Assembly (NCBI GenBank): GCA_902702965.1
Contig: CACRXP010000035.1
Location: 843,231 to 907,230, forward strand
Source of the DNA: Spirometra erinaceieuropaei
Lineage: Eukaryota > Platyhelminthes > Cestoda > Diphyllobothriidea > Diphyllobothriidae
Direction: 5' to 3'
DNA length: 64,000 nucleotides
Part shown: positions 19,448 to 57,370 of the stretch, in pieces
How positions within the stretch are numbered: the stretch's first letter is position 1
Layout of the letters: every line of letters begins with the position of its first letter
Notes under the pieces: model-generated
Database searches by the model: none
Told to the model about the DNA's origin: nothing
The model's input: the letters and a program-made list of their open reading frames with translations, nothing else
Position numbers and translations under genes: made by a program

Positions 19448-19529
19448 GGCCTCGTAGTTCAGATGGCTAGAGCGTTGGCTGTACTAAGGCCTTCTCCTTG
19501 CTTTCGTGGGTCCAAATTCCACCGAGGCC
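19448..19529 (+). repeat. tRNA-like SINE head with complete cloverleaf
   Basis: The acceptor pairs GGCCTCG (19448-19454) with CGAGGCC (19523-19529), 7 of 7. TA follows, then the D-stem GTTC/GAGC (19457-19460, 19470-19473) around AGATGGCTA. The anticodon-region stem starting TTGGC is only partly paired. The T-arm is GTGGG/TCCAC (19506-19510, 19518-19522) with the 7-nt loop TCCAAAT. Box A is TAGTTCAGATGG; box B GGGTCCAAATTCC is two changes from consensus. The variable region is long. A real tRNA gene would have TTCGA in the T-loop and an intact anticodon stem, and a truncated inverted copy lies nearby, so I call it a SINE or tRNA pseudogene. Confidence 0.6.
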
Positions 19530-25359: not shown

Positions 25360-25515
25360 CCCTACACTTGACAAACGTGGCTATTGGGTCATAGTCCTAA
25401 TCGGGATCGAGCCCCAGGTCTTCCACACTTCGGGGTCAGGTATGACTGGCCGACGACGGCTAATAAGCCAAAAATGGCCATTCCAGTCTCCGTTGTCTTG
25501 TCGGTAATACCATTC
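25360..25515 (+). repeat. Possible tRNA-headed SINE
   Basis: GTGGCTATTGGGTC (box A-like) is followed about 30 bp later by GGATCGAGCCCC (box B-like, one change from GGTTCGANNCC). Then comes a body containing AATGGCCATTCCAGTCTCC and GTCGGTAATACC. The AATGGCCA..TC.CC part recurs at 25047-25068 and 35017-35045. It abuts the truncated long-TIR element at 25520. Confidence 0.35.
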
Positions 25516-25519
25516 TCCC

Positions 25520-26195
25520 TATATCATGCGCCGTTCGAAGAAGGCGTATAATTAGATTTAAAAAAAAGTTTCTAATTATGAGATTTTTTAAGACCGCGCA
25601 ATACCCATTCATATAGCATCGTATTTCTCCGGTTATCACGGCTTCCCATGAAATGTACAAAATGGTCCGCATCCATTGCACATTTTTATGGACTCTGTAT
25701 GATATCCTTTTAAATTCAGAGAAGACTGTGATTTTCTTTAAGCGGAACGCATGCACCTTGTAGACTGAAATCGCTAGGCGCTAATTCAACGACTGTTCAC
25801 GCTCCAAATTAATCGGCAATTAGAAAACTTTCTTTAAAACCTAATTTTACTCCTTCTCCGAGTATAAAATATAAAGATGCCGTGAATCTCTATCAAGCGA
25901 ACGAAAGAAAACAAATTTTTGTTCGTTGTTTCTCTAAAATATATTTGAATTTGCAAGACCATCGAAAGTCAATGGGAAAAATGCATGCTAATTAAGTAGT
26001 CATTTTTTGCCGAGTAAGATTTCTACTGGAGTTTCGAAAGCGGTATATTCAGAAGCTGACATCCTGCCGAGTCCGAAATATCATAGGATTATGCCGCCAG
26101 ATAACCAGTATTACAACAGAGCCCAAGTAATCCTTCCTTACCGAAAACGCATTTCAGGATTCCAGTCAACATTTCATGAGATCGGTCACTCACTG
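25520..26195. mobile_element. Long-TIR element, left-truncated copy
   Basis: The centre and the whole right arm are present: ATATATTTGAATTTGCAAG, ATGCATGCTAATTAAGTAG, AAGCTGACATCCTGCCGAG, ATTATGCCGCCAGATAACC and the end ATTTCATGAGATCGGTCACT, then CACTG|TA (26191-26197). The left arm is lost; the SINE-like sequence lies at the break. Confidence 0.75.
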
Positions 26196-26197
26196 TA

Positions 26198-35331: not shown

Positions 35332-35333
35332 TA

Positions 35334-36314
35334 CAGTGCGTGACCGATCTCATGAAATTTTGGCCAAAATTCTGAAATGTGTTTACCATTAGGAAGGATT
35401 ACTTAGGTGGGGTTGTAATATTGATTAGCATGAAGCATAATCCTATAGCATTTCGGACTCTCCAGCATGTCGAATTTTGAATGCACTTCTGCTTGGCCTC
35501 CTGCAGAAACCACATTCGTAAAAAGTGACTATTTAATTAGCATGCATTCCTCTCAGTGATTTTCGATGGTCTTATAAATTCAAATACATTTTATAGAAAA
35601 CATGCACAAAATACGCTTTCTTTTGCTCGTTTTGCAGAAAATCACATTGTCTTCATATTTTATACCCGAAGAAAGTGTATACTTAGGTCTTAAAAAAGTT
35701 TCCCATTTCCCAATGAATTTTGAGCCTGACCTAACATTACATCAGCGTTTAGCGATTTCAGTCTACAAGTGCATGCTTTGCGCGTAAGGAAAACCGTATA
35801 TTCCTTTATGCCTTTAAGAAGATACCACATAGACTTCATAAAATTTCGCAATGGATCCGGATTATGTTGCACATTTCATGAGGAACATTGGTAAACGGAC
35901 AGTTGCGGTCCTGTATGCATGGACATTGTCCGGTGTTGAAAATCTCATAATTAGAAACTTTTTTAAAACCTACATATACACTCTTTACGGATATAAAAAA
36001 TGAAGACAATGTGATTTTCTACCAATCGAGCACAATGAAGCATATTTTCATGCATGTTTTTTATAAACTATGTTTGAATTTATAAGGCTATCGAAAATCA
36101 ATAGGAAAGATGCATGCTAATTAAGTTGTCATTTTTATTGGGTGAGCTTTTCGCAGTAGATCAAAAAGGAGTGCATTCAGGAGCCGACATCCCGGCGGAT
36201 CCGAAATTCTATAGGACTATTCTGCATGCTAATCAATATTGCAACCCCATCCTTCCTAATGGAAAACACATTTCAGAATTTCGGCTAACATTTCATGAGA
36301 TCGGTCACGCACTG
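35334..36314. mobile_element. Long-TIR TA element, complete copy (type 2 ends)
   Basis: Flanks are TA (35332-35333) and TA (36315-36316). The left terminus is CAGTGCGTGACCGATCTCAT, and the right terminus is its complement, ATGAGATCGGTCACGCACTG. The arms stay complementary far inward: for example GGAAGGATTACTTAGG, GCATGCATTCCTCTCAGTGA and AAATACATTTTATAGAAAAC on the left, against their complements at 36060-36270. Length is 981 bp. No transposase frame exists inside, so it is non-autonomous. The TA duplication suits a Tc1/mariner-type transposase acting in trans. Confidence 0.88.
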
Positions 36315-36316
36315 TA

Positions 36317-39300
36317 CATGGAGTCCACGCTTCTGACAAGCACAAACGGTAATTGGATGTCTACATTTTTAGACTAACGGTTCACCTGTCCGAGCACCAA
36401 GTCTGACTTTCTTCTTCCGCCCTAGTGACACAGGTTTCAGTTCGACCCAAAACCTGCATTTAGGTGGAGCAGTTGTAGGTGTGAGGCGTAATAGATCACG
36501 GTGGCGTATAGAACATTCATCGGACGTATTAAAGGAAAACTGGCCAGATTTGAGGTGTTTTGCTTCTGAGTCTTTCTTGCTAAAACCCCACTAACTGCTC
36601 TTCGTTACTGAGTTGCTGAAGGACGCATTTCCGAGACGTAGTCTGGTCGAGTTTTTGGCTCTCGGATATTTTATCATCGATTGTCCGCAAAATTCATCAT
36701 GCGCGAGGGGCTGGTTTGGCAGACAGCTGCTGTTTCAGGCAAAGCAGCTTGTTTGTTTAACGGACAAAATCACAATTCTCAAAATGTCCGCATTAGCCAA
36801 AAATGCTGGCTTGTGGTTCACTGGTCTTCTGCGCTGCAGAGCATAAATGCGAATTATGCGACTAATCAAAGTTTCCCCCGGTCTTTCTTCATGTGGTTTC
36901 TTAACCTATTTCGTCTTTATTTTACAAGCGCATAATTATGCCTGAAATTAACAAACGGGACCATAGCAATTGCATCGGACCAGGCCTTTCTCGTGCCTAG
37001 GCTGAATATCGTCAACTCCTAGGACTATGCTCTGATGACGTTTTTTATGTAATCACACGAATACATCCGAAGTAGAAGCCCAAGTGCCGGCTTGGCTCAC
37101 GGCCACGTAGTTATTAGGCTGGGAGAGAGATGGGGCAAGACAATCCGGGAGATTTATGACCGCGTTTTCAAATCTATCCCGCTGAACTTATTATGTTTAA
37201 CTGTACAATGACCATGGGACTGCCGAAGAAGCCGTGCCGGGGGAGGGGCGGGGGACAACACTAAGTGCGACAGCAATCACAAACGCCCTGCAGCTTATTA
37301 AGGCCCCCAACTCCCTAGTCTGCCCCAGAAACCAGACGAGCTCTGCTGTCTGTTGGGTCTACAAATTCCACTCTAGTGCGTCGGCCAACCATCGAACGGC
37401 GCATAGTCTAAATTGCACCAGCCAGGGAGGGGGGACCTGCAGCTTGTGAAGTTGGCGCAATCCACCAGAATTCCAGACAGTCTGTTCGGCTCTTCTTCTG
37501 ACTGCTTTCACTCACCCTTCCAGCTCTCTCGGTCTTCGAATTGGTCCTAGCCTCTATACTAGTACAAAATTGGCACATTAAATGATGGCAAAAGGGAAAG
37601 AGGAGTTTCGGCCACCTTACTTTGTGCAGACTTAACCTGGCGACAGCATCAGTCATGTGAATGTTCGTATACTAGGTACTTCTGGTGCGGCAGTTAGCAG
37701 TCTGTCGTTTTTCGCATCTCCCGAGAATGTAAAATCACTCGTTCCTTACTCCGGAGTTTTAGACTACTCGTAAATTTCTGCCAGTCCCAAAAACGCGAAT
37801 TTTTTTGAACGCTTATTGATATCGGTTCGTTGAAAACCCATAGTGCCTGCCGTATTTTGGATGTTAGCAGTACCGCTAGCATTCTTGCAAAAAATCATAT
37901 GCGCTGCTGAGGCGCTCGGAGGATGGATGTGCTAACAAGACGTCGGCACCCAAGGCGACCGTAAGAAACCACACCCAGTGAAACGGTTTCACATGGTCTC
38001 CGGTTGTTTTGCGTTCTCGAACCAACCAGTTGAGTAGATAAACTTTCTAGTTTACTCAAGCATTTCCCTTACAATGCGTCGACACAGTTTATTGCGATTC
38101 AGACCATTGTTCCGTCCTGCATTTGTCTATTCACCACACATGTTATCGCCGTCAGTGATATGGCAGTGGAACCATTAAAAATACCGTGTACCCAGGTTTC
38201 AGTAACAGATATTAGAATTTTCAAGACTGATGTCTTGGCCCCAAAACATCTTGTCATATCACGACGGGCTAAAGGCGATCTTATTTGAGTATAACTTCTA
38301 CGTCCGTCCGCTAAAGTCGGAGTTTGACTACTTCGAAACCGTCCACTGAAAAACACGTATGGGCTTTACGCCTTGACATAAATTTTAAAACTGCGCTTTT
38401 CTCATTTTCTCTCAGGAACTTGACTTTGCCAACACCGTCAAAATTGTTTTATGGTTCATGTCGATTTCCAAATATCAGTAGGCTGCTCCGTTCACTGTGA
38501 AAAAAGAAAGAATTATAGATTATAGATTAAAGCAATTATAGATTGGAACAAGTCTGGATATTGAAGCTGGCATAAGACGCCCATATCGCAACGGAACATC
38601 GGGAAGACTTACAAACAGCCTACATTTCCTCCCACCTAATATTTGGTGTGCTATTCCCGAATGCTCTCCTTCAGGCCATTGCTGTTTGAAACGGCTAAAC
38701 TGTCTGATTAAGCCTAACAAAAGTAAATTCATTTCAAGATTTCTAAGTGACTATTCCGCCAGCAAAAACCAAAAATAAGAATCCTCTTGGCTTCACGCGG
38801 CCACCCAGACACAAACCTAACCTGCTTTCAAACTCTTCGTTGTGTGAAAAGGTACCTAGACTTGTCGAAAAAAGGCTGTTGAACATAAGGTGCAGGCAAA
38901 CCACCACAAGGTCAGCTTTGGCCAGTCAGGTAGACAGCTAATACTCTACAAGGTCCTGGTTACCGGTTATGGTAACACTTGTGTCTAAATCGGGCCGAAC
39001 TCGTATACGTGGACACCAACTAGCGGTGCTGAGACAAAGCATCTGTTTCAGATAGCCATGCACACATTGAACAGGAAACATATGTTTGTATGAAGGAGGA
39101 CTCGCATCATTCATGTCATTTTAACAAAGACTGACTGATAGGCTCTAAAAGCGACGCACATAAACGAGGCAAGCATAAGTAGTCATTATCGATTTAGATG
39201 CTGCACACAAGACTATCAGGAAAATTTGGAGACGAACGCAGCCAATATCGACCAGGTCACCTAATATGGATAATGTCCATTGGCACGCAGTTTAACTAAC

Positions 39301-40690
39301 CACAGCATATTTTGTTTGACGCTTAAACGCTAACTTATTTCGTGTGTTGTCCACAAGCTTCACGACGGACTGCGGAAACGGTTTCGAAAATACGCAATAA
39401 TTTTTGTTTCATTCAGGGTCATCAAATGCAATATGTGCCATATTCGAATACACTGAATCGTATATTGAAAAGACAACTTTTCCAGCATGCTTCCAACATG
39501 CGTACTTCCTGCGACACTAGTTGACTCAACTGCCCTACACATTTCTACTTCTATTTGTCGCAGCCTTTTGTGTGGCGGAAATTACGTGACCATTCCGTAG
39601 GGGTTGATTGTTTTCAACACCACTTTTATTGGATTTTCGGGCTGACCGTAAAAGTCAGATTGTGAACTGTTAACCAGAGTCCATTCCTCACATAAATTAA
39701 ACAACTGACATGCGCGTTTATACGTATGTTACCTAACTCCACAATTTAAATATAGCTGCTTTTGTTTTGGTTTACTTTTCGCCAAACGATACACCAGATT
39801 ACGCTTAATACAACAGCTGCCCACTGATTATACTTCTGTATGCTTTCTGCAATTTATTGATGTCGGGTAGAATTTTTCTACTCTAATTTATTAATAAATA
39901 GAGTACACAAGTCCGATTTAAAATTCTTACAGAAAATTCATATTTATCACCACGCTAACAAAAGACAGTCATTTTACGGGGACTGGAATATCCGTTCTTT
40001 AAAACTCCAAAAGGCGACCTACGGTTACAGATTTTTGATAAAAGAGACATCCACGAGTGTGTCTATTACGCAATGCCTCTGCTGACAATGAACGTATTAA
40101 TATGCGATCGCCAGAAAAGAAAATCTGGCGAAATGCACTTTTATGATCAACGAGAGCTAATACTTTTGCATCAACGATATGCAACTATATTGTCTTCGCA
40201 ACACGTTAATTATGAGCTTACTCGACATGTTGCGGTGCACCTCATATGTAATAAAGCTGTACGGAGAGCTACCGACCGGACAAAAAAGTCGTGATAATAC
40301 AGATAATCACCAAAAGTAATTTGGAATGTACTGAACGTGTGGCGTAACGTAGTATAGATGTGAAACATCCAACTTTTTGGTACAGCATAAAACGGCAATA
40401 GCTCTCCTCACCCCTGTAGCTGATCTAAACTTAACCTATCAAGAAGTCTTCTGTTCATGTCGACTACTGAATATCTGTGACATTTTAGTGTCCTAGTCTT
40501 CTTATCCGAACCTTTGTTCAAAAACATGCCATAAGACTGCTGCACTACGGGAAGCCATTAATCAACCGTTCAAACTAATGTATATGTTTTAACTTAACCA
40601 CTCTGACTGTATAAAATGTACTAAGTGCCTCCACTGCCTTCTAACCATACAATGATTGAGGTTTCTGTATTGTTACAGCGCGTAAGGACT
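36317..40690. other. No recognisable gene
   Basis: 4.4 kb of mixed-composition DNA with frames under 90 codons. A G-rich stretch lies near 37224-37240 (three G-runs only). Nothing was assigned to a family. Confidence 0.45.
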
Positions 40691-40699
40691 TCTGCACCA

Positions 40700-40885
40700 T
40701 AGTTCTCTCAAATGCGTCCAGTTTTACCCATATACTTGCGAGGGTAGCCAGCACTGCAAATGAGGCAAATGATATTCTGCTCCGCTTCTGGTCTCAGTAG
40801 GACCTTCGAATGCATGGTTTGGCTGAACATATTGGCCATCGGCCGGCGCGTCACGTTCTCGAGCGCTGCGTTCTCGGACCTCGCA
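40700..40885 (-). pseudogene. GIY-YIG nuclease start (Penelope-like element), weak
   Basis: On the minus strand, KVLLRPEAEQNIICLICSAG, then YPRKYMGKTGRI (about 40805 to 40715) has the spacing C..C....Y.GKTGR of the zinc-binding and GIY-YIG segment at the start of these nuclease tails. The sequence after GKTGRI does not continue the domain clearly. It lies on the same strand and in the right order downstream of the RT core at 42819-43120. Confidence 0.4.
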
Positions 40886-41629
40886 TACAGCTCTAGTGTA
40901 AGGTAATAAGTGCCTCATTTATGGTCCTGTTTTATTACTGTCGTTTGTTACTCATCGCTAGCGAATCTTACTCATCTGGACAAGCTGGTCCTCGGACTGG
41001 CAAAGTTAAGAGCTCCGGGCTGATGAAACTGGCGGTGAGGATACCTTATATGGCACCCCTCGAGGAGATGTTAATGGGAACGCGCCTACCTCTTAATGCG
41101 GAGAATATTAAGCCAAATTCTAGGAGGCATCTTTATTCCTATATCCTAACCTTAACGCTAGTCAATCAAGAATGGGAACACACCAATCTATTGGCTTCTC
41201 GAAGCACATAAGCTCCCTATTGGTGGCAAAGCTCACGAACAGCCTGCCAACTATGAGACCGAAGTCGAGCAAGTTGCAATAGCAGAGGTAAATGACGACA
41301 GAGTACTGTTTTCGGCTTATTCTGCCTTTGGGTCTTATTCAGCCGATCATAACACTGGCTACCAGCTGACTGAATAAATACTCGATTTGTAGCAACGCAG
41401 AATGACGGGTGCTGAGGCACTGATAAACTTCGGCAGGAGGAAGTGCGTACGATCCATCTGCTGGATACGGCGCGCGGATCATCTGCATGTGAACGAGCGC
41501 ACTTTGCGCTTCTTGTCGCGCTTGAGCGTGGTTCGGGTTATGATTGACTGAATGAACGTAGAATAAGCCAAATAACAGTACTGATTAAATCTACCCGCAT
41601 TTCCTGCCGTCTCTCCCCTCTCCTAACAC

Positions 41630-41700
41630 TACTCGTAACCGAAACCTAAAACGTAAACCTAATAGCAGCTTTAGCCCTAAACTTATCCCTAGCCCTAGCA
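41630..41700 (-). repeat. Telomere-like CCCTAA-type tract
   Basis: AACCTAAAACG, AACCTAA, AGCCCTAAAC and CCCTAGCCCTAGC recur, complementary in sense to the G-rich tracts at 23.7 and 52.5 kb. It stops about 18 bp before the TA flank of the element at 41720. Confidence 0.55.
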
Positions 41701-41719
41701 ATAATTCCACTGAAATTTA

Positions 41720-42705
41720 CAGTAGGTAGGCTAACTCATGAAATGTCAACCGAAATTTCAAAACGCGTTCTCCTTTCGAAAGGATTAGTTAAGTAGGGTT
41801 GTAAAACTAATCATCCTGCAGCATAATTGTCTAATGAGCCAGTTACCTCAGGGTATCGGCCTTTGAATGAACCCATTAATGACTGCATGCAAGAACTATA
41901 CTCAGCAAAAAATGACTGCTTAATTAGCATGCACTTTTCTCACTGATTTTCGATGCCCCTGAAAATTCAAGTATATTTCATGGAAAACATGCATACAATC
42001 ATTCATTATTTTACTTATTCTGTAAGAAATCACGTCGTCTTCCATCGTTATACTTGAAAGCAAGGTAAAATTCGGCTTCGAAAAGTTTTTAATTGAGATT
42101 TTTTTAATACTGTGAAGTGGCCGTTCATAAAACGTCATGTATCTGCATTTACCAATGTGGCATGTAAAGTGAACAATATTGCTCAAATTCACTGCTCAAT
42201 TCTATGAACCCCATATGGTCTCCTCTTAATACCGTTAAGAAATGCATGGTCTTCCGCACAAGGAAGATGTACGGCTTGTAGTCTTGAAAACCTGAACGTA
42301 GGTGTAGCAGCAAGTCGAGTTCAAAATTATTCGGGAATTAGAAAAGTTTTTTAAAGCCGAATTATACTTTTCTTTAGAGTATATAATCGAAAGAAGACGT
42401 AAGTTTCTACCGAATAAGGAAAACAATTAATATTTTTATGCATGTTTTCCATGAAATGTAATTGAATTTCAAGGGCATCGAAAATCAATGAAAAAAGTGC
42501 ATGCTATTGAAGTAGTTATTTTTTGCAGAGTATGCTTCTTGCATGCAGTCGGAAATAAATTCATTCGAAAGTCGACAGCCTGAAGTAACTGGATTATTAT
42601 AGAATTATAGATGATTAGTCTTACAACCCCGCTTAATTACTTCTTTCGAAACGAGAACGCAGTTCGAAAGTTCGGTTGACATTTCATGAGTTAGCCCACC
42701 TACTG
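41720..42705. mobile_element. Long-TIR TA element, complete copy (type 1 ends)
   Basis: Flanked by TA on both sides (41718-41719, 42706-42707). The left end CAGTAGGTAGGCTAACTCAT and the right end ATGAGTTAGCCCACCTACTG are complementary with one change. The arms extend more than 330 bp, including GCATGCACTTTTCTCACTGA, GATTTTCGATGCCC and TTTCATGGAAAACATGCAT on the left, with complements at 42436-42500. Length is 986 bp. No coding capacity. Confidence 0.9.
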
Positions 42706-42818
42706 TAGCTCAAGACCACATGTATTAGGAGAACACGTTTCTGTTACTGTGTCTTGTCGGGGGGGGGAGCGTATTGGCAATCCCTACCAAATTGGGGGTC
42801 TAAATTGTTTTCGTGGCC

Positions 42819-43120
42819 TTACGATGGACGGTCATCGCCAGATCGTCTTTTAGTTAACTGCCAGCAAGAACGCGAAGCAATGAGAGCTTCCGTTTTGCCT
42901 TTTCCTCCACTGTGAAAATGATTCCACAAAAGATAAGTCTTAAATACATCATGGGCCATGTTTACGGCAAGCCTCTTGATTATTACAGAAGTGTCGTCAG
43001 CACATCGGCGCCAAAACACTGCTCCGTATTGCCCGATAGCTGAATTCCTTAAAGAGTTTTCTGATGCAGCCATGCGTGTGTACAGTCCCACAACTCAAGC
43101 GGGAAATGTAACTTTTGAGC
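42819..43120 (-). pseudogene. Reverse transcriptase catalytic core fragment (Penelope-like)
   Basis: The minus-strand frame 43091-42819 reads SAIGQYGAVFWRRCADDTSV, then IIKRLAVNMAHDVFKTYL and LWNHFHSG. This fits FW.RYVDDTFVIIKR......F...LN...P.I.FT of the RT family that carries a GIY-YIG tail in flatworms. The Asp pair is at 42993-42998; the usual Tyr-Val before it has become Cys-Ala. Upstream (43092-43120) GCIRKLFKEF is a shifted continuation. The fragment is about 100 residues of a protein that is normally several hundred. The element at 41720-42705 lies just downstream. Confidence 0.55.
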
Positions 43121-45199
43121 ACCAGAGTTTTTATCCGAGAATCAAGTCTCTACTTATGTGCATTTAGTTCAAAACCAACGAAACAGAGTCATTGTCACCA
43201 GCGACATACAGTCCCTTAATTCTGCAGATTAATTATTCCTACAACTCCGTGGGTGGGCGTTTCTGAGGACGTAAGGAACTTCTAGTAACGGAAGGAGGAT
43301 GGATACCCGTAGCCTACTGCCAAGTCGACTGCCATTTCCCGAGGCAATTTTAAAATAAAACTAACCCTTTAATGTCATTAGTTATTTTTATGACCTAGGC
43401 TGCCGTCTTTTGTTGTCGAAAGATCCAAATTATGGCCCTGTTCAGAGGGAGAGGATTGGCCACGTGCATTCACTGTAAGAGAAGAGGAGAGGAAGAAAGT
43501 TACCAGCAGTGTTGCTGGACAAGATTTCAGAGTTTTCCGGCCACTATCCGCAGTGACTTCAAGCGGTGTTGTCAGTAAATGGCAGAGTTTTATTGGACGC
43601 TGGAGAGGCACAACCGACATGCTGCGGGGGATCAAAACAGTATCACCAGACAAGGTTTCCGAAATAACGACTGCCCTCTGATACCACCACTGGAGGCGGG
43701 GCCATGAATTTCTGTCTCATTCGTATCAAACTGGACAGGGTCGATCAAGTGGCCTACCTTTCCACTGCAGTATCCTTGTTCCAAAAACAAACGTCCTCCA
43801 AAGAGCGAACATCAACTTAATAGGAACGATTGATCTGTTGATCTTTTGGAATAGTTCAAAACAATAGACCGCGGACATATTATTAAGAACGGCTAGTTGC
43901 AGAAGACAGACACTTAAAAATTACTTTGATGAGCCATCTGCTTAAGCAGGAAGAGTCAACGGCCCTACGAAAAAAAATAAGTACGCATTCTGTGCTTCGT
44001 ATTATTGACCAGAAACACCTAGTAGCCACAATGGCCCATTAAAACAGTTTAGTGGAAACAAAGGCCATTTTTGCTCTGTGCGAGATATCATTTTGGATAG
44101 CAAATAATTTTGGGATAATTTTGGCAACAATTCTTAATCCGGTTAAATTTCACTAAAGTCTGCCTGAAAATGATGAGTATCGGTAATTCATTCTGGATGA
44201 ATGAGCATGCAAGGTGATTTTAGCCCTCATGGTAGATTTTTTACGCAAGCGTTTTCTTTATTCTCAGACGCTGGCGAAACTGCCGCCGTAATCTTTATCC
44301 CAATTCGAGCAAACCCAGACTTCTTGCGTCATTACCATCCTCTTAGTATTTTTTATCTCGGTGGAGAAGCAGAATTGAGGTGTCTGACACAGTGTCAGTT
44401 TTGGTCCAAACGAAACTGTTTACGCTCATCATTCAAATTCGGAACTGACGAACACCCATTTTTCCACAAGATTAATTGCAGCCGAAAAATGGGACGCACG
44501 CCATGGAAGAGGAGAATTGATGAAACTGGTGAACGTCATTTCCTCTGCCATTCGCAGTCTGCCCAAACTTATCTCTGGTTCTTCAGTAGTGGGTCTTATA
44601 AGTGGCCCAAAATTATGTCGTTTTCCATTGTCACTTCTGACTAAAGGAAAGGAATTTTTGGAGCATCAAACATTGTTTTCAACCATCGCCACTGATCATC
44701 AAGCTCATCTCGATCTGAATACTTAAGAATCTGGCGCGATGGTAGTTTTTCCATGTGTTTAGCAGATGTTGGAGACTATGGCGTGGCGAAAATTTGTGTA
44801 ACTTCCACAAACGGTGCAGACAAGAGCCCTGAGATCATTATGTGCACGATTGTGAGTCCATGAGTGAGTGCGAAACAGCATTACAAAAAGTAAATATCCA
44901 ATTTAAATGTTGGTAAAAACGGGTAAATATGGCCCCTTAAGACCGAGCCGGTTCTACGAACTCTAACCTAAAAACGGGCGTCAACACAATAAGTGTCCTG
45001 ACCTATGAATTATGCTAAGACTAACAAAAAACCTTCAATCATTCAGAAACCGGCTCAAGTGCGCGGGTCATAATGGGTTAACAATAACAATTTTCTTGGG
45101 GAAAGAAGAAGCTTCAAAAGCACGAAAAATTGTTCCAGGTAAGAAAGCTAAATGACTGAGGTACATAAAGCCTATCCATGTAATATGGCATTTCTTCAG
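43121..45199. other. Unassigned; open frame of 147 codons at 44201-44644
   Basis: The plus-strand frame 44201-44644 is among the longest here, but its sequence shows no motif I know and the start is not in a convincing context. Nothing else was recognised. A minus-strand frame at 43378-43653 is equally unremarkable. Confidence 0.35.
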
Positions 45200-45360
45200 C
45201 TGCCTAAAATGTGGCGATGTGTTGCAAGTCCATTCAGTGTAATTTTTCCGTTTGTTTAAGATGCGGCTATCCAAGGCAAAGTAGATTCCGCCCGATTTTG
45301 CTGTTAGAAACATTAGGGGAAAAAGGGTTTTCATGAAATCACACGTAGAAAGATCGGTCG
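45200..45360 (+). repeat. Dispersed repeat R5, copy 1
   Basis: AAGATGCGGCTATCCAAGGC ... GTTTTCATGAAATCACACGT ... AGATCGGTCGGTGACTAG matches 59985-60135. In the plus frame both copies can be read as MRL.KA....DF...VF.K.HV.RS.GD, so an old coding sequence is possible, but I cannot name it. Confidence 0.5.
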
Positions 45361-46267
45361 GTGACTAGGAAATTATTACAGAATTAGCGGATACAATCAT
45401 AGGCACCTCATTTTTGCATACAAAAAGCACCTTCTTTCCTTAAAGTTACTGGTTGGCTCTTGCTGGCAGTAGGCTCCTCTGAACTACAGGGTATTTTTAA
45501 ACATCAGCAAGTTCTTTAGTGTTGTCAGCGTCCTCAATAGACTGTACAAAATGAGGGCTTCAATAATTTGTTTCTAAGAATATCTACAAACTGAGTTAGT
45601 TCTTGAAGGCACTTACCTACTTCGTGAGTTTATGGATGTTCCCTCTTTTATGGAAGCGACGGTCTAGGTCATATATGCACTCACCCAAGAATGAAACCTG
45701 GCAGCCGAAAAATTAACGTCCGCGAAGAGAGCTCACAGTGTAGGTACTAGAAATCGATTGGAAAACATTCCATAATAAGTGGCCTTCCTAAAAAGGCTCT
45801 ACTGGGATATTTGGCGGACGGATACCCGCGTACTTCACCTTTCTCAGAGGCAACGTCAAGGAAAAACGGAATGTGTGACACCTTTCTGCGCCTTCCTGAT
45901 GCACCCTGATAGGTTTTCCGTCTAAGGCGAAAAATCGACTTTTCTATTGTACTATATCCACTGGCGTTGTCCTGGTTTACGTTTTGACATCTTCTATCAG
46001 TTGCGAATGCACAACCTAGTGACCATCTAAATACTATAATAGTGCTTTAATTTCTAGTGGCCTGTCCTTCTGTCATTGAAGTACGTATTCGCAGAAACTA
46101 GACTGCACAAAAGTCCTCCCACTAAATACTTAAATTTAAAATGCCGGCCTGATGATGGGCCCTTTCGCGGTTACTCATGGCATGTTAATAAATGCCAGGA
46201 ACGCATTCTATTTAAAAAAACATAGGTAACCCATTGGCGTTATTTCTGCAATTGAGACCATAAATGT

Positions 46268-47154
46268 CAGTAACGAATCCCACGAAACTGACATTCCGGA
46301 ATAAGTTTTTGATCAGGAAGAAATACTTGGGTCGGTTTGTAATGCTGATTTTAGCCTAGGATAATCTGAGGATATTTTTAAGTCGTATCCCGATGCCAAA
46401 CAGCACTCAGAAAAGGTGAATAATTAAGTAGTATGGCCTTTTTCTTCATTTTAAGCGTCTTTATAAGTTTAATTTCACTTAACAGAATAAATTGTCGAGA
46501 AAATCCCATGGCCATTTCGTAGGGCGGATTTATGTAGGCCTTCAGTATTTCAGCTACCGGAAAATTTTGAGATCATTCTGTCTTTGCATTTGCATTTAAT
46601 GCCCGCATACTACAAGTTGCATACTTTCCATATAAGGAAAACCATGCGGTACCTATACCAGTAAGGCGATACTATATAGAGTTCATAATATTTTGCTATG
46701 AAAGAGAGCTGTGTTGTGTATTTAATAACGATCATTAATAAACGGACAATTATGATGCTGTTTGAAATGGCATTTCGTAGTCTTGAGAACTCTCCCAAGT
46801 GTGCTTCTTAAAAAGCAAAATAACAACCATCCTTCGCGCGGAAGATTTGAAGAAAAAGCCATTCGCTATCAAGTAACTATGCTAAAGAATATGTTTTGAA
46901 TGCTTTCTGTAAAGTATATTTGAATTTACAAGGGCACCGAAAATAAAGGAGAAAAAATCATACTAATAAAATTATCATTCCTATAGACTTTAGTTTATAC
47001 AGGCGGGCAGTGGGGAACCCGTTTAGAAGCCGATATCTTGACTTGTCTGAAAAAGACCCGGAATTAGTATTGCAGTCCTACTTAAGTAATCTTTACGAAT
47101 CAAAACCTCTGTCAAGAATTTCGGTCAAGGCTTCTTGAGATAGCGCCTTTACTC
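46268..47154. mobile_element. Long-TIR element, diverged copy
   Basis: The left end is CAGTAACGAATCCCACGAAAC, then GGAAGAAATACTTGGGTCGG. The right side has AGTATTGCAGTCCTACTTAA, GTAATCTTTACGAATC, TTTCGGTCAAGG and ends near ACTC|TA (47151-47156). The arms are alignable with 35334-36314 but many substitutions have accumulated, and the left TA is not kept. Confidence 0.6.
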
Positions 47155-47339
47155 TATTTATGTTTTTTTGGAAGGCAACTTGCTTTTGCACATCTGGTTT
47201 CACCTTTTTAAGGCGGAACGAAAAATCGGTTTTTATTTTGGACAAGGCAGTTTCGATAGAATTTTTTCATTTTGACTATCTTCCCCTAGTGTGAAAGCAC
47301 GCACTAATACATCCAACATTTATTAAGTAAGGTGAATTT

Positions 47340-47487
47340 TAATAACGCATAAATTTGCAACCTTCCTAATAAATTGCCTAGAAACATATTCTGCACGAGA
47401 GAAAGGTAAAACATCCGGCGCTCAACAAACTTCTACATGATCGACCACATTTCCGTTATCACGTTTCATGAGTTAAGCCACTTATTG
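47340..47487. mobile_element. Long-TIR element, right-end fragment (type 1 ends)
   Basis: ACGTTTCATGAGTTAAGCCA, then CTTATTG|TA (47461-47489) matches the type 1 right terminus of the 41720 and 53847 copies. It lies only about 190 bp after the end of the diverged copy at 46268-47154. The left part is absent. Confidence 0.5.
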
Positions 47488-47489
47488 TA

Positions 47490-50400
47490 TTCCCAATGAA
47501 GGACTTAACGAATCATCACTTTAAGTGCACATTGTATGTTTTTGTGCTCCGCTCAATCCCGTCACTGAGAAATTCGAATGCGGGGCAGTTTCTGGGTCTG
47601 TAGGCTGTCCCACTTTTGATCCCTGCCTGTCACTGTTGACAGTTCTTCCGTGTCTGGGCATTTCACTTTGAAATCCGCCCCTGGCACTGCAAACACGGTG
47701 ACAGGAGCGCAGCAACAGTCCTTCTTCCCACAGTCCAGTTAAACGCTATCCTGGCTGACTGTCCACCCCTCGCCACAACGTCGTTATCATCGGCGCCTGC
47801 TTCACTGGTCGGTGGGCTCTAGGAGCGAAAGACGAAAGACTTCTTGTGGAGGCTACGCTCTCGTTTACGAGCGCTGCATGTTTTTGCCAACGGCCTGTCC
47901 TTTTCTGTAGATGCTCAAATTCGTCGTGACTATGGCGCATAGGCGGGCAGTACGGGAGTGTTGCCTAGCCAGTCCGCGCAAACGCATGCTGCTGCCCTTG
48001 TGGGGTTTCAATGTGTCCGAGCGTTTTCGCAGAACGACACTTGTCCCTATCTCCTTGAGTAATAAGGGAGCTTCCATACTTGTCACGCATACACACAAGC
48101 AGAGTTCAAACAGCATGTGAATGAACAACACATGTCCAGGGGCCGTGCCGCCATGGGAGACTGTTCGTAATTTAGGATGGCGCTGTAACCTATAGAATAA
48201 ATTGTCGCGGCCAGTGCATAAATATTTTTTGACTAGCGTTGCAAAGCTAATCAAAGCACGCTAATTTTAAATAAACCTCTTCCAAACCATTTTTGCAAAT
48301 ACATTTAAAAGTAGATCACCGCTTTCTTCATTTTTAGTTTTCAAACAATGCATGATCTTCGCATGTTTGCTTATGTAGCCAACCCTCTCAGGTATATTAG
48401 TGTTGCTTGAAAAAATTGCAACGTGATCCATATCCGCTTTAATATTTACCAGCAATGACAGGCCTCTTTAGAGGGGCATAGTGTTGATCAGACATATTAC
48501 GAACAAGTGTACTTTTTAGTAGTTTCTGAATATAATGATATTGACAGTTTCTTGAGAAACCGTAATACTCCTTTACTCAACAAACTGGTTTTAAATGGAC
48601 CTGCTTTGCGTAAAGCGTGTGAAGATCTGACCGTTTTACACATTTTAGTGAAATATTCAACTATGACTGAGTTTTCGCAGACATTAACAATTGATGAGAT
48701 AGTAGAAGAACGACTTTATTAGCGTGTTCTATCGCAGTGGAATTAATTCACGCGATCGCACAACCGACCATTTAAATTCCACTAGAGAACGCCGCCAGGG
48801 TTGGCTTGTGATAATAATCCCCGCCAGCAAATTCACTATTCCTAAGTAATCAGTCTTTCGTACCGGGAAACACATGAACAAAATTCCACTATAGTCACGC
48901 TAGTTTCAGCGCATGCTTTGCTTTTACCGTTGACTCACTCTCATAAAAACTTGTGTGGAAGATAATACAGTGCTCAGAAGTCTAATATTATATATACTAA
49001 AATATGTAGGAAAATAAGTTCTTTGGGAAAAGCAAAAAAACTTTATTGAGCACATTTTCGGCGTCATTTCCCCGTGTCGTCGCCAGACTCGAGTAACTAC
49101 GCAAAAAAACGATTAACGTTTCAAATATAATATGTACATAATATATAGCATAATATGCACCCGATGTTAAATCATTCAGGGAGTTAATACATTCTACTCG
49201 GTGCTACAGCTTCCTTCATTGCGCCCCAGACACTCGTCGAAATCCTTTGCAGCAAAAATATATTCACTGAGGCTGGTGAAAAGCGCGGCTCCAGAGAGAA
49301 AATTGACAATACTGCTCATCATCAAATTTCACTGGGCTCATTCAGTCTGTTTCGTGGTTTTTTTTATTCAAGCACCAGGCCTAGTTTGCCGTTTTGCGTC
49401 ACAGCGCCTACTGTTACACTTACAGTTCAGCACGTCAGCCGAATGTCTGTCAAAAGCGTATCTACGCTTTGAATGCCACCTTGTTCTACAGCAAGACTAG
49501 CCGTACATCGTCGTTTCGTAGTAGCTCCGAATGCGTTGTGTCACCCCGTTTATTTGGAGGAAATCTCAAACAGTGACTCTGTCAGCGGTTTTCGAAGCAC
49601 GCTGAAGACAAAACCTGGCATCTTGTTATTTCTGAATGCTATATCCCTTTCATCTCATAAGTGAAAATTTTAAAAACATACCGGTTTGAGGACGGCGGCA
49701 TTTAAACCTACAATAAAAGCCATACGGCAGATATTTTCGCAGCAGTGCGGGAATTACCTTTTTCTGTTGATAAGTCTAATTTTATGATCATTATTCATTT
49801 TATTTGAAATAGGAAGCCACTTCCCCACACTTCCCCAGAAATTTTCTCTGTATATTATAAGTAAAGTGGTTATGTGCACGATGCGGAGAGACATATTTTC
49901 CTGAACTGCAGTCAACTCTAATCCTCCTATAAGTCATATCATGACTCGGATGCCTTAGTGGTCTGTCTGTATGAGATTGCTATCTGAGCTATAAAAATGC
50001 CGCTTCGACGTTTATTACCTAGTGGCTGACTTTATCTAATGCTTTTCACTCATTTCGTCAGAGTTTTACGTTTAGTAAAGGAATGAGGGACGGTGAAACC
50101 GAGTGTTCAGCCGGGGAAGACCAGCCATATTCCGATTCGTTCATGCAAATACTCAGTTAAAAATCCACACCCTGTCCGAAGAAGAACCGACCATAGGTCT
50201 ACGCTCTATCAAAACATTTTTTTAGTTTATAAATAAAAACTGTCACAGAGTGTTATCTGTTACGCTCGTCAGTTACTTCAAAGATCTAAAGATTCGCTGA
50301 ATTCCCAAATGACAAAACTGATTAGGGAATCTTCGGCGGACCCTCTCTCTAGCACTGCTAACATCGTAGGCCGGCTTCCCTGATATAAAGTGAATTATTT

Positions 50401-52524
50401 ATTAATGACACAATTTACATTTGAAAGAAAGCACAATATGTGGCTAAAATACTTCCTGAGCTACATCATATTTTGCCCTAACCAGCCACTTCATTAGGAA
50501 ATTGTCTCCCTTTAACCGCTCCTAATTCCCTATTCATAAACTCATGGACTTTGAAAACAAATCAAGGTGAAGGTGAGAAGAAATGCCGTAAACAGTGTGG
50601 AATTCATTAGCTATACCCTAGAAAACCCTTAGGCGTGCGTTTTCAAGTGCCTTAAATGTTTGCGTGGATGAAGTCCGTCGGTTTTAATCCTTGCGGTCTA
50701 TTCAGAGTCACTGACAGGTTATTTTGCTACGATAGCAATAGGTCTGGTAAACAGAATACTTCAAAGGCTCCGAAATCAGCTATAAGTTGGCATATTTCAA
50801 TAATGCTCATGGCTTTGAGTGGACTCTCAGTTTTCTATATTCCAGAAAATAGAGGAAAGTTTTAAATAGGCCAAATTATTGCATGAGAGAATGTGAACTT
50901 TCGACCTGTGCAGAGGTCAGACAAATTTGCCTTGAGGTGGGGCGCAAGCCTAATTTGAAGTTCACAAATACGATACCGCTAGCCTAGCCGTCCTTATTTC
51001 CTATTTTGCTTTAAAGTAATTTTATACTGTCCTTACTGTACCAGCCTACTTGGCGCGATTAACGACTTTAAGGAGTTTACGAACACTACCACCAGAGCGG
51101 ATTCCATATAAATAATATAGGAGACAGGGGTAGGTTCTAGGCATGTCAACCCGAAATACCGTCTTTCCACTTCCTTGTGGTTTTTAGGCGGTTATTAAAA
51201 GAAAATGCCGAATTAGGTAGGACGATTTTACAGATCGAATAAATGTGGTCTTATTGCCGTTGTATTTTTTTCTTAGGGTCAAAGCAAGGTTAAGCCGTTC
51301 GCGTGTAATTTGAATATGCGGATTTGGGGCTATGGGCCGATTTTGTTCTAGCTCGGTATGATTCGGTTATTTGCGCGAGATAGTAAAAAGGCTTTATATT
51401 GCGAACATTTTTCGACCGAAAATGGCCAAATATACTAGCACGTAGTAAAAATTCTCATAGCATGGCTGTCCCACAATAATGAGGCTATCTAGTATACAAG
51501 TGTTTCCTGACGTCCGCGCAGGGAATGTGAGGTAACAAGTGTTGATTTGCGTTCAGGTTGGCGTGCCTGTCATCGCTGACCAGTAAAATAATGGCGAACT
51601 GGTGAGTAGCGCTCAGAAATTGCTACCTTTCTATTGCCGACTAACGGCGGCAATTTTTTGTCTTTTAAGAATGTCCAAAGGGATTCTGGGCGATAGGAGA
51701 TTTCGTCCTTGCGTGCGATGGGTCTTAGCGGTAGAGAAATTGCCGATGCATAAACACACCCAAAACCGTGGCGAGTAAATGCGCTGCGGCTGGTGAAAAG
51801 TAATGAGAAGGAACAGACGGGAGGGGGAGGAGGAGGAGGAGGAGCCGTACACCCCGGAAGAAAGGAGCAGAACTACGTGATTTTCCTGCCTGAAACAGTG
51901 ACATGCTCGCCGTCAAGCAGGATATGAAACAGGATTTTTCCAAGACTGTCATTCACAGGATCAGGGGGCGTGTATCACCATTCGCCAACGGAAGCTTAGA
52001 TGACTATCGACGATCAGAAGGTACCACAAAGAAACACAACTATTTTAGGCTAAGTATCATATCATCTGTACAAGCCGGCGGCCCGAGGCGAACTTTTCCG
52101 ATAGAAGGAAATTTAATCTGAATAGGTATGACGGTTGCAACTGTCGCTGGGATGGTCCGCGTAGACAGCCCAATACCCATAGTGGATGACCATCGTGGAA
52201 GGTGGTTGCGTGATGATCTCGCGTATGGTAGGTGAAACTCTCCCAGTGTAGGCAGCGGGAAGGAGACATTCAAACAGTCCGCAATAGTTCGCACGTGCTT
52301 ATTGGCTTTCTGTGAAGCATATGCAGGCAGCATTTAACTAAAGAATGCATTGCCAGCACTTGAATGTAATTTTGTCCTCAGTCTTATTGAGTACACAGGG
52401 CACGTCTGAATTTATTTGCAGATACCGACAATGTGCATACAGTTACTGTCTACGGAAAGAAATTTTCCCGTGAGTAGGCAACTGGATAAGATGCGGTTTG
52501 GTAGCCCCACCTGATGGCCACAAT
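47490..52524. other. No recognisable gene; weak exon candidate 48454-48722
   Basis: The frame 48454-48722 (plus, about 88 codons between stops) has a balanced composition, including SEYNDIDSFLRNRNTPLLNK and LNGPALRKACEDLTVLHILV, more protein-like than most frames here, but no family was recognised. Around 47520-48130 the DNA is GC-richer and resembles a repeat. The rest is AT-rich. Confidence 0.3.
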
Positions 52525-52670
52525 ACTGTTGGGGTTGGGGTTAAGGGTTGGGTTATGGTTAGGGGTGTTTGTTAGGGGTTATGGTTAGGGGTTAGGAGTA
52601 AGGGTCAGAGGTAAGATTCTAGGATTATGGGTTGTACTTAGAAATTAGAGTTAGGGATATGGTTATCGCA
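52525..52670 (+). repeat. Degenerate telomere-like tract with G-quadruplex potential
   Basis: GGGGTTGGGGTTAAGGGTTG continues as GGTTATGGTTAGGGG, GTTAGGGGTTATGG and TTAGGGGTTAGGAG. All G-rich words are on the plus strand. The first 25 bp contain four G-runs in quadruplex spacing. Confidence 0.75.
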
Positions 52671-53257
52671 ACTATTTCTCAACCATTCAAAGTACAAACT
52701 TGCATTTCCAATAGCTTTTCTTATACATACAACTACTTGACCTCGTCGCCTGTGCGTTCCCCCACCTCCCCCCTGTAAAAACCCCTATTACCAACGGTCT
52801 CGTGTTAGAAGTGACTGGGATTTGCTTACTTCAGGTGGGGCTATTTAATCACATTCGACCGCCAGCTGCTACTGCCCAGAGATAAACACAATTTCCTCCG
52901 GTATCTAGCGTACTCGATAGGCATGACGACAGGTTCCGGTCAGACGTTGACAACTGTAACTGCATGTCAGCGCTCATCCCGATCTGAGTTTCAGGGCGGG
53001 ATGTAACCTCGGAGTCTTGCCATCTGAAGACTGCCAAGCAACTGACAGACCACTGAAGAACTTTTTGAGCGAGGTTTTGGTAGGCGTGAAAAGCTTCGCG
53101 ATGTTGACGAAAGTGTAACGGATGAATGGACTTGGGTCTGAAGTATATACGCGTCGAGGGCGCTTATCGGAGACCGCATGCTACGGGGTGGTGGAGGATT
53201 TTCCGACGCGGCCGCTTGGCGGGAACTGTTCAACCAGCTTTTAATAATTTGCGCTAG

Positions 53258-53449
53258 TTTATGGACTGTGACTGCGGGCCATGTGGAGACCGAATTCCAC
53301 CAAAGGATGCACTGCCAGTATTTCAGTCAGCCCCTGACGACTTTGTGTTTCTACCCCTGTTCTATCGGGTATGCAGGATGTGTTTGGATTTGTTGGCACA
53401 TATCGACAGCTATCGCCAGCAAAACAAAATTTTACTGTCAGATCAATGA
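53258..53449 (+). CDS. Weak candidate exon, unknown product
   Basis: A 63-codon frame follows a TAG that could equally be a splice acceptor AG after a pyrimidine-poor stretch. It reads MDCDCGPCGDRIPPKDALPV, then FQSAPDDFVFLPLFYRVCRM and CLDLLAHIDSYRQQNKILLS. Composition and hydrophobic periodicity look protein-like (amphipathic helix near the end), but I recognise no family, no neighbouring exon is evident, and an alternative frame of 104 codons overlaps it. It may be chance. Confidence 0.2.
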   Translation, partial: FMDCDCGPCGDRIPPKDALPVFQSAPDDFVFLPLFYRVCRMCLDLLAHIDSYRQQNKILLSDQ

Positions 53450-53846
53450 GTCACTGCTGTACTTCAGGGATGAGCAGAAATTATTTAAATGAGTTTTTGC
53501 ATACGGGATAAGTACAAATTCGCGTTCTGGGCGCTTGTTGCCAAGTGTATCCATGACGGCACTCATCAAAACCTGTGTTGCAGATAACCAGCATTGCGGA
53601 CGACCGCCTCCGAATACAGATAGTTACGAAGCTTGTCTTCAAGATTTCAATTTGGCTGCAGGTAGAGAATAGGCTCAGCTGAAAATTGCCGCATTAGTTT
53701 TCTGCTTCGGTCTCTTATCTACGCAGACAAAACAAGACGCCTGTGGGGAGCAAATATCTGCAGAGTAACAAAAGTCCCGGCTGGATGCCCTATGGCTAAA
53801 CACATTACATAAAGAGGTGCAGATGCCGACCGAGTCATGGTTGGTA

Positions 53847-54820
53847 CAGTAGGCGGACTAACTCATGAAGCGACGGCCGAAAGTTCGAAATTTGTTCTTG
53901 TTTCGAAAAGATTAATTACTTATGGTTGTAAAAATAATTATCATCCAGCGTAATTCTATAATTATCCAGTTACCTCAGGGTGCCTTCTTTCGAAAGAACT
54001 TATTTTTGACTGCATGCTAAATCTGTAGTCTGCAAAATATGAATACTTAAATAGCATGCAATTTTCTCATTGATTTTCATTTCATGAAAACGGTGTACAA
54101 AAATATTCATTCTTATATATATTCGATATAACATTACGTCTTCTTTCAATTTTAAACTCGAAGGAGGAGGATAATTCGGTTTCACAAAAGTTCCTAATTG
54201 TGAGATTTTTTAATCTCGTGAAATGTTTGTTCATAAAACGTCATGTATCTGCATTTACCAATGTGGCTTGTAAAGTTAACAATATCGCTCAAATACACTG
54301 CTTAACGTTGTGAACCTCATATGGTCTCGTCTTAATACGGTAAAGAAATGTATGGTTTTCCGTACATGGAAAATATATGGCCTGTAGTTTTAAAACCCTG
54401 CAGACAAGTATAACAGCAGGTTGGGTTCAGAATTATTCGGGAATTAGAAGAGTTTCTTTAAAATCGAATTATACTCCTCCTTCGAGTATGAACTTAGAAG
54501 AAGACGTGATTTTCTACCGAACAAGTAAATGAATGAATATTTTTATCCGTGTCTTTTATGAAATATAATTAAATTTTTAAGGGCGTCGAAAATCAATGAG
54601 AAAATTGCTTCTTACAAAAGAAGCCATTTTTTACAGAGTGGGGTTCTTTTCTGCAGTCGGAGATAAGTTCATTCGAATGCCCGGCCCCCTGAGGTAACTG
54701 GAACGTTATAGAATTATGTTGCATGATGTGTTGTTTTACAACGCTACTTAAGTAATCTTTTCGAAACCAGAACGCATTTCGAAATTTCGGTTGACATTTC
54801 ATGCTTTAGCCCACCTACTG
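53847..54820. mobile_element. Long-TIR TA element, near-complete copy (type 1 ends)
   Basis: The left flank is TA (53845-53846), then CAGTAGGCGGACTAACTCAT. The right end ATGCTTTAGCCCACCTACTG is followed by CA, a decayed TA. Inside, GTAATTCTATAATTATCCAG, GTTACCTCAGGGTG and the right-arm complement CTGAGGTAACTGGA (54692-54705) show the arms still pair. Length is 974 bp. It is closest to the copy at 41720 and lacks coding capacity. Confidence 0.87.
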
Positions 54821-54822
54821 CA

Positions 54823-55583: not shown

Positions 55584-57218
55584 CAGGTAATGACCGATCT
55601 CATGGAATGTGAGCAAAAATTTTGGAATGCGTTTTTGACCACGAACGATTGCTTGCGTGGGGTTCTATTAATGATTGATGTGCGGCACAGTCTTATTATA
55701 TTTAAAAACAACATAATACTGGCTGTGTAATTATTTACCATACTGACAATATAGGTACTAGCGAAAAGCTAGTTAGTACTTGTGTTGTCAGTATGGTGAA
55801 TAATTGCATTATTATACACTACTGGCTGCTTGTTGGCAATTTGTGAATATTACGCGGTTAGTCCACAGTAGCTGAAGGATTTCAGCCCAAATATTTATAT
55901 CAAATTTAGGGTTGGGTCTTAAACGGACTGTTCGAAGGAATTTACTTTAAGTTCGCACATTTATTTCATCGGCAATAAAACAAGGCAATAATTTTGGCTT
56001 TTAAACTTTTGTTTTCGGCCGTCTGTAAAAATCACACCCAGTAAAATGGCTGCCTAAGTGAGATGCACTTTCTGTTCATTTTCAATGCCCTTATAAATTG
56101 AAGTATATTTTATAAAAAGCATGCGTAAAACCACTTTAAAATGTAGAAGCTTTGTGGCAAATTACGCCTTCTTCAGAATGTATACTGTAGTCAGGAGTGA
56201 CGTTTGGTTTTAAGAAAGTTCTACAATTTTCGAGTGATTCTGAACACTGTCTGTCACTGCGTTTGGGTTTTCCAGTTCACAGGAGATATACTTTCCGATT
56301 GGAGAAAATCACAAGGCCCTCTAAGCCTGTAGGAAGATACCGAATAGGACTCGTAAAATTTTGCAATGAATATGGACTAAAAAGTTAACTGCACGAGAAG
56401 CACTAATAAAAAGACCGATAGAACGCTGTATGAGTCGAAATTCAACAGTCTTAAAAATATTCCAATTAGAAAATTTTAAGGCCAGTAGATGCTCATTCTT
56501 AAAGTACACGGCAACGGTATATACAATGACCACACGTAACCGTCAGTAGACTGTGGATCGCGCCCTACGTGATTTATGGTAAAAAGAGTTTTATGGATGG
56601 GGCAGCACGCTGGATAGTAAGCTGACAAAATGAGAGAAAACGCAAAAATTGCCTGAATTTATGTCACAGTTCTTGTCCTACGCTACTGTACGGTTACAGC
56701 AATTAGAGTATTAATTAAACAATAAACAGAAATTAAATTTTGCAAAATAACGAATTTTAAGTTAAGGTGTGAGGTCATGGGAATTAATCGTTGTTGACAG
56801 TGTAATTTCTGCAACAGCCTGCAAACATATGCCAAGATAATACCCCATATGACATGATCCACAGTCATTCTCCATACTGTTGTCAAATATACACTTTGAA
56901 GAAGGCCTAATTTTCTGCACGATGAGTCCAAGAGAAAATATTTCTGTACATGTTTTCCATAAAATATGTTAAAATTTATAAGTGCGTCGAGAATCAATAA
57001 AAACAATGCATGATAATAAAGTGGTCATGCTTTACTGACTGAGTTTTACCGACGATTGGAAAGATATGAATTCAAAAGCCGAAATACTATGGTGTCCAAA
57101 ATATCGTGGGATTATGTCGCATGTTAGCCGGTATTAGAACACCACTTAAGTATTCCTTCGTAATCGAAACTGCATTTCAGAACTTTAGTAAACATGTTAC
57201 AGAACCGGTTACTGACTG
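55584..57218. mobile_element. Long-TIR element split by nested insertions
   Basis: The left end CAGGTAATGACCGATCTCAT (type 2) runs to about 55690, where homology stops. It resumes at about 56025 (GTAAAAATCACACCCAG, AAGTATATTTTATAAAAAGC) and continues to about 56530. The right arm is at 56930-57218 (CATGTTTTCCATAAAATATG, CACTTAAGTATTCCTTCG, ending CCGGTTACTGACTG). The total of 1635 bp exceeds the family's roughly 980 bp because of two foreign segments, about 330 and 400 bp. The first of these carries a foldback hairpin. Confidence 0.65.
55729..55805. repeat. Foldback hairpin, arms about 34-38 bp, 5-nt loop
   Basis: The left arm (55729-55762) starts AATTATTTACCATACTGACA and ends GGTACTAGC. The right arm (55768-55805) is its near-complement, ending TGTCAGTATGGTGAATAATT. 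The loop is GAAAA. The sequence TACTGGCTG occurs on both outer sides (55717-55725 and 55820-55828). It lies within the first interruption of the long-TIR element. Confidence 0.85.
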
Positions 57219-57239
57219 TCCATATACGGTCTTGGGGAT

Positions 57240-57370
57240 ACCCTTTCATCAATTAAGAAATTCAAAGAAGACATGAACTTCTACTAACTGGGTACAGGAA
57301 ATAATATTTTTGTGGGAGTCTTCTACAAAGTGTATTTAAATTTACAAGGCCTTGCAAATCGATAGAAAAA
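57240..57370. mobile_element. Long-TIR element, internal fragment
   Basis: AAGTGTATTTAAATTTACAA, GGCCTTGCAAATCGATAG and the preceding GAAGACATGAACTTCTACT match the inner right arm of the family (compare 36000-36105). No terminus is present. Confidence 0.5.

Follow-up and report, generated by a model that had tools for sequence, protein, structure and literature searches.

The genome of the tapeworm Spirometra erinaceieuropaei carries a family of elements of about 1 kb, each made almost entirely of two inverted arms, which we analyzed from a 64,000-nucleotide stretch of assembly GCA_902702965.1 (contig CACRXP010000035.1, positions 843,231 to 907,230; hereafter the window). The element is complete at its CAGT and ACTG ends and duplicates TA on insertion. 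This TA duplication, together with a tip that the second of two subfamilies shares with Tc1/mariner elements and the existence of many copies that bear no recognizable gene, identifies the family, very probably, as a high-copy, non-autonomous, palindromic miniature inverted-repeat transposable element (MITE) of the Tc1/mariner group; this confidence excludes conversion between arms, which is weighed separately below. Tc1-like ends start with CAGT at a TA. The layout is already known and the family itself is new: no description of it was found in open-access papers, which were searched by text rather than by sequence.

Structure and completeness of the element

Three complete copies in the window occupy positions 35334-36314 (copy A, 981 bp), 41720-42705 (copy B, 986 bp) and 53847-54820 (copy C, 974 bp), exactly where a preliminary description of the window had placed them, and all three start with CAGT and end with ACTG, as it had also reported. 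Copy A, on the minus strand as judged from its spacer relative to copy B, has arms at 35334-35702 and 35954-36314, a spacer at 35703-35953, and target-site TA dinucleotides at 35332-35333 (left) and 36315-36316 (right). Copies B and C lie on the plus strand. The arms of copy B are found at 41720-42090 and 42342-42705, with the spacer at 42091-42341 and TA at 41718-41719 and 42706-42707; those of copy C lie at about 53847-54199 and 54461-54820, with TA at 53845-53846 and CA at 54821-54822. TA, which had been described at every junction of these copies, is therefore present at five of the six, the right flank of copy C being the exception. The arm pairs measure 371/363 bp at 80% in copy A and 373/366 bp at 80% in copy B (lengths that include the flanking TA), and 336/360 bp at 71% in copy C, so that the complementary arms of at least 330 bp described earlier are borne out at about 340-370 bp; a spacer of about 250 bp separates them in all three copies. 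Each copy would comprise a putative transposase-recognition tip of about 29 bp and a further 342 bp or so of arm, then the unique spacer and finally the same arm inverted. A second copy of the tip farther inside the arm, the arrangement of IR/DR (inverted repeat/direct repeat) elements, was sought and rejected (p = 0.29 direct, p = 0.37 inverted).

The copies fold far better than shuffled sequences (z of -26 as RNA and -28 as DNA for copy A, -32 as DNA for copy B and -18 as DNA for copy C, with no equally good fold among 20 shuffles in each case). Since the arms can pair along nearly their whole length, the family could be imagined as a set of hairpin-RNA genes whose stem is retained for a function such as supplying small RNAs, with transposition secondary, and copy C does lean towards stem-keeping mismatches on one strand (23 G-U, 12 A-C). 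No such lean is seen in copy A (19/21) or copy B (17/23), however, and the window contains no Rfam match, which led us to reject a conserved RNA stem as the main explanation and to regard it as most improbable.

The copies fall into two subfamilies, the first represented in the window by copy A and a partial fourth copy, D, and the second by copies B and C. Spacer identity is 73.8% for A/D and 82.5% for B/C, compared with 57.6-60.6% between the groups. In local alignment, the spacers of A/B, A/C, A/D, B/C and B/D score higher than any of 300 shuffles, whereas those of C/D do not.

We searched the 758.7-Mb assembly (1932 contigs) with copy A as the query, which returned 15,965 initial candidates; 40 were scored, copy A included, and all 40 are near full length. 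The 39 other copies, fetched as the best matches to copy A and not at random, come from a ranking that favours complete copies; to define their ends, the arm profile was extended as far as its first position. All 39 are 958-996 bp long, a homogeneous length. A consensus built from 21 sequences (copy A and 20 of the fetched copies) spans 994 bp, with 371-bp arms that are 99.2% complementary and a 252-bp spacer. MITEs are usually below about 600 bp, with few exceptions, in the part of a published account consulted here (PMC4877112), and the 994-bp consensus is at odds with that size, which is a usual rather than a defining trait. The preliminary description had named one way in which its reading could fail, namely that the copies are fragments of something larger. 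The 39 genomic copies speak for its reading, as they end in CAGT/ACTG or decayed forms of these motifs and are flanked by TA on both sides in 27 cases and on one side in the remaining 12.

Two of the 39 fetched copies are nested in other members of the family, L024 within a second-subfamily arm and L026 within a first-subfamily arm. When the nested element is removed together with one TA, both host copies can be aligned over the insertion point without gaps. In the case of L024, the alignment is gap-free with one arm of copy B and one of copy C; the other arm of copy B has small gaps of its own immediately ahead of that point. This gap-free restoration shows that the element is complete and that its target-site duplication is the 2-bp TA. 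It also bears on a foldback (FB-like) element, that is, one with long inverted repeats of tandem subunits and a different type of transposase, which the very long arms and strong fold-back potential might otherwise bring to mind. In Drosophila, the FB target duplication is 9 bp. Copies A, B and C contain no tandem array, TA is duplicated at both nested sites, and the tip matches Tc1/mariner; we rejected a foldback element in the absence of tandem subunits, with the 2-bp duplication and the tip match being decisive, and give it next to no credence.

Probable transposase-bearing partner elements

The copies themselves carry no recognizable gene, and the longest stop-to-stop frame within a copy is 91 amino acids (copy B; a 106-amino-acid frame at copy D extends beyond that copy), in agreement with the earlier statement that no copy carries a transposase. 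We compared them with elements from a genome search for the DDE_3 domain, which gave 824 initial candidates and 150 scored matches, from which 30 loci were fetched (L048-L077) and the ends of 18 obtained. In all 18, both tips resemble ACAGT..CTCATGAAATG or a near variant, mostly preceded by TA. Sixteen of these elements are 1,732-1,943 bp long and the other two about 1 kb, with inverted repeats of 25-39 bp by BLAST. Their frames match Pfam DDE_3 and HTH_Tnp_Tc3_2, a Tc3-type helix-turn-helix, although some matches fall below the Pfam cut-off. The right end of copy B matches the tip of L057 at 96.6% over 29 bp (E = 4e-8). These similarities suggest that the elements of mostly about 1.9 kb, with the same tips and a decayed transposase, are likely the partner of the second subfamily. 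An element with CAGT and ACTG ends and a transposase, which had been proposed as a target for searching, has thus been found as a likely partner for the second subfamily, whereas no parent of the first emerged from the seven elements compared.

The DDE transposase of Tc1-like elements with this tip would recognize the 29-bp tip and mobilize the palindromic copies in trans by cut and paste into TA, of which the nested copies show the TA duplication. Beyond the tip, none of the seven transposase elements compared matches the arm or the spacer at E = 0.01 or better, and we saw no convincing DNA similarity between them and the copies. The second subfamily shows that a palindromic derivative may succeed while having no more in common with its helper than about 29 bp of a Tc1/mariner end.

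Some of the evidence from these loci weighs against a Tc1/mariner MITE with this helper. The first-subfamily tip is only weakly similar to those of the seven candidate parents (81% over 27 bp, E = 0.13), and its own parent was not found among them. Stop codons interrupt all 13 of the listed DDE_3 matches that cover at least 100 of the 146 domain positions. Furthermore, arm positions 253-273 of the consensus match L056 at 90% over 21 bp (E = 0.011; E = 0.13 for copy B at the same place), which might be a trace of a shared interior. Such a trace favours a rival reading, in which the copies derive by internal deletion from a larger transposon whose terminal repeats are naturally long, of the long terminal inverted repeat (LTIR) or Tc3 type, and long-repeat relatives are known elsewhere, as an excerpt of the aphid literature describes (PMC5490172). 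However, the inverted repeats of the 18 transposase loci (from 30 fetched of 150 scored matches) reach just 25-39 bp, the spacer recurs as a constant component of the family, with the identities and local scores given above, and none of the 39 fetched copies departs from the narrow length range, even if the ranking favours full-length copies. We rejected a fragment of a larger long-repeat transposon on the basis of these short repeats and the lack of a convincing interior match in the seven elements compared, and consider it very unlikely beside the Tc1/mariner MITE.

The transposase loci offer further observations on the Tc1-like elements. The 262-amino-acid transposase frame of L049 is 99% identical to a metagenome protein and 57% identical over 93% of its length to a S. 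erinaceieuropaei protein, with other proteins of this species reaching up to 98% over about a quarter of the frame. The first two catalytic acids are separated by 88 residues in 10 loci, and the second acid and the glutamate by 48 residues in five loci, by 48.3-49.3 in nine more (reflecting frameshifts) and by 43 in L057; a stop lies within the latter span in L049 and L061. The latter spacing is 34 residues in Tc1. Open frames of one length, 86 amino acids, account for more than 100 of the 150 scored DDE_3 matches (for example L062-L075) and contain just the final quarter of the domain, which suggests that a single decayed transposon version predominates.

The same 30 loci, picked for their transposase, give a measure of how widespread the palindromic family is: pieces of it occur in six of them, amounting to 2,122 of 97,854 bases (L057, which has the tip only, was excluded). 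Extrapolated from this small sample, the family would make up about 2% of the genome, with its fragments numbering in the tens of thousands. For another Spirometra assembly, an excerpt of a 2025 paper gives DNA transposons as 1.4% and unclassified repeats as 24.4% (PMC12249497), and the palindromic family could belong to the unclassified share.

Similarity between the arms of single copies

Independent drift of the two arms after the subfamilies diverged would leave left arms similar to other left arms. Instead, sites group the arms by copy: 52 sites do so in the A/B comparison, compared with four by side and two crosswise, and the corresponding counts for A/C are 48, 0 and 2. This grouping indicates that homogenization of the arms of the sources took place once the subfamilies had separated. 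The near-identical arms of the consensus suggest that the family would have spread from such sources. The arms beyond the tip were probably created by inverted duplication or a template switch, and would have been kept alike by copying between arms at hairpin formation or break repair; inverted repeats near a break are described, in an excerpt of PMC6103520, as annealing within or between molecules. Whether conversion or hairpin template switching also homogenizes the arms of single copies is, in our estimation, about evenly balanced.

The distance between the two arms of a copy, divided by their summed distances to the consensus, has a median of 0.64 over the 39 fetched copies. Low ratios, at or below 0.29, occur in L018 (0.08), L009 (0.12), L029 (0.18), L012 (0.20), L028 (0.24) and L030 (0.29). 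Over 372 arm columns, with significance assessed by permutation, the longest stretch without a difference is 339 columns in L029 (0 of 20,000 permutations), 310 in L009 (p = 0.0007), 146 in L028 (p = 0.00025) and 96 in L030 (p = 0.012). The two arms of L009 are 99% identical over 364 bp and those of L029 98% identical, yet in whole-genome queries the nearest of the 39 other scored copies is only 89% identical in each case (40 scored of 12,706 candidates for L009 and of 12,187 for L029). Unless this is an assembly artefact, the arms must have been homogenized within the lineage of each of these copies. We tentatively propose, at somewhat under an even chance, that conversion acts at resident sites, with single copies regaining near-perfect arms after about 11% divergence from every other copy found.

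The fetched copies L013 and L021 lie on different contigs, and their flanks are about 95% identical on both sides over 492 and 497 bp; they are either one insertion duplicated with its surroundings or diverged haplotypes. They differ at five columns where the two arms of each copy agree, against at most about 2.4 expected if the arms had changed independently (an upper expectation calculated from 25 left-arm and 35 right-arm differences over 369 columns). These shared changes hint at conversion after insertion without proving it.

A number of results weigh against conversion in place. The ratio is 0.42 or higher in 33 of the 39 copies, and the difference-free stretches of L018 (207 columns, p = 0.19) and L012 (103 columns, p = 0.06) are not unusual. 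In the B/C comparison the preference for copy over side is weak (eight sites by copy, two by side and two crosswise), and the two arms of copy C are not sisters in the arm tree; B and C resemble branches of a star that radiates from a single source. Of the 21 changes that both arms of L009 carry, none is private among the 78 arms, and private changes make up just 33 of 491 shared changes overall; with so few, most of the sharing between arms reflects subfamily ancestry. Near-identical arms could also have arisen without conversion in place, through recent insertion of copies from a diverged source. L009 and L029 show few differences along the arm outside the outer tip and may simply be young, with the other offspring of their source lying outside the 40 candidates scored for each. 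The 89% identity of their nearest scored copies counts against such youth, as do the hint from L013/L021 and the loss of the intact left tip and left TA in L029, although a single deletion could explain the last of these. Recent insertion, to which we assign a substantial minority chance, would still need source arms that were made alike after their split from the other copies found. An assembly error that copied one arm over the other might also account for the near-identical arms.

Provided that conversion at resident sites occurs, the copies would serve as natural replicates in which to measure the repair and upkeep of palindromes, and the rate and tract length of that repair would be recorded genome-wide by tens of thousands of scattered, datable palindromes. 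Palindrome repair is otherwise studied in large sex-chromosome palindromes or engineered yeast repeats.

Other copies and features in the window

A profile built from the seven arms of copies A-D identified four loci besides copies A-C, compared with the "at least five more decayed copies" of the preliminary description, which overstates the number unless the last locus holds two. The accompanying density of about one copy per 8 kb is a fair figure, with seven loci in 64 kb, or eight on that count. Copy D (25514-26195, plus strand, first subfamily) retains a single full arm at 25818-26195, the spacer and an inner stub of the left arm, the outer part of which has been lost, and is followed by TA at 26196-26197. 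Copy E (13156-13991, minus strand) is decayed, with two arms, part of the spacer and eroded ends. The profile search also placed the decayed copy F at 46276-47148 (minus strand) and the decayed, interrupted locus G at 55591-57404, to which no strand was assigned. Locus G is probably one copy with two foreign stretches, at about 55703-56009 and 56504-56876, and an extra arm fragment at 57238-57404; alternatively, it represents two copies. The first foreign stretch has a 21-bp inverted repeat at 95%.

The same profile found 0 loci in the reversed window. The tip pattern with TA, at up to two mismatches, has six matches in the 64-kb window where 0.00 are expected, one of them at the fourth copy, and gave 0 matches in the viral contigs scanned. 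A search for empty sites inside the window, using the joined flanks of the copies, found no match across a junction.

Two further features lie apart from the family. An inverted pair of 83-bp stretches (81%) spans positions 19164-19494, the right one overlapping a tRNA-Ser-like call, and is possibly two opposed tRNA-derived short interspersed elements (SINEs). An open Helitron_like_N helicase fragment of 230 amino acids (positions 8983-9675; Pfam E = 2e-34) has spider records as its best named relatives, even though the host is a tapeworm; this makes it a possible lead for horizontal transfer, and the spider match is probably misleading as a clue to the host.

Comparison with known systems

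The preliminary description knew of no family with this layout; palindromic and long-repeat Tc1/mariner precedents do exist. Tc6 of Caenorhabditis elegans is non-autonomous and palindromic, has Tc1-like ends, targets TA and measures about 1.6 kb, with longer arms. As Tc6 is usually described, the palindrome, the Tc1-like ends and TA are thus common to both families, while Tc6 is longer and belongs to another phylum. Submariner_Ps1 of Pandoravirus salinus is, in an excerpt of its description, a nearly palindromic, TA-flanked MITE that is 243 bp long, has terminal inverted repeats (TIRs) of about 100 bp and occurs in 30 copies (PMC4495683). Both it and the tapeworm family are nearly palindromic, TA-flanked and non-autonomous, but the latter has a 994-bp consensus, 371-bp arms and many more copies.

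The origin of the arms has a parallel in Rpmar49 of Rhodnius prolixus, in which 221-bp TIRs were made by one end replacing the other, as reported in the part of the study consulted (PMC4678618), and the tapeworm arms probably formed likewise, through inverted duplication. Rpmar49 and Rpmar17 resemble the tapeworm family in being short mariner derivatives (PMC4678618, in part). Aphid LTIR mariner-like elements, with TIRs of about 460 bp, share with it the combination of Tc1/mariner affinity and long TIRs, but they carry the catalytic domain of the transposase (PMC5490172, from the same excerpt), which the tapeworm copies do not. Closest to hand, the Tc1/mariner elements of the same genome have like tips and differ from the palindromic family in their length of 1.7-1.9 kb (16 of 18), their short TIRs and their decayed DDE_3 transposase.

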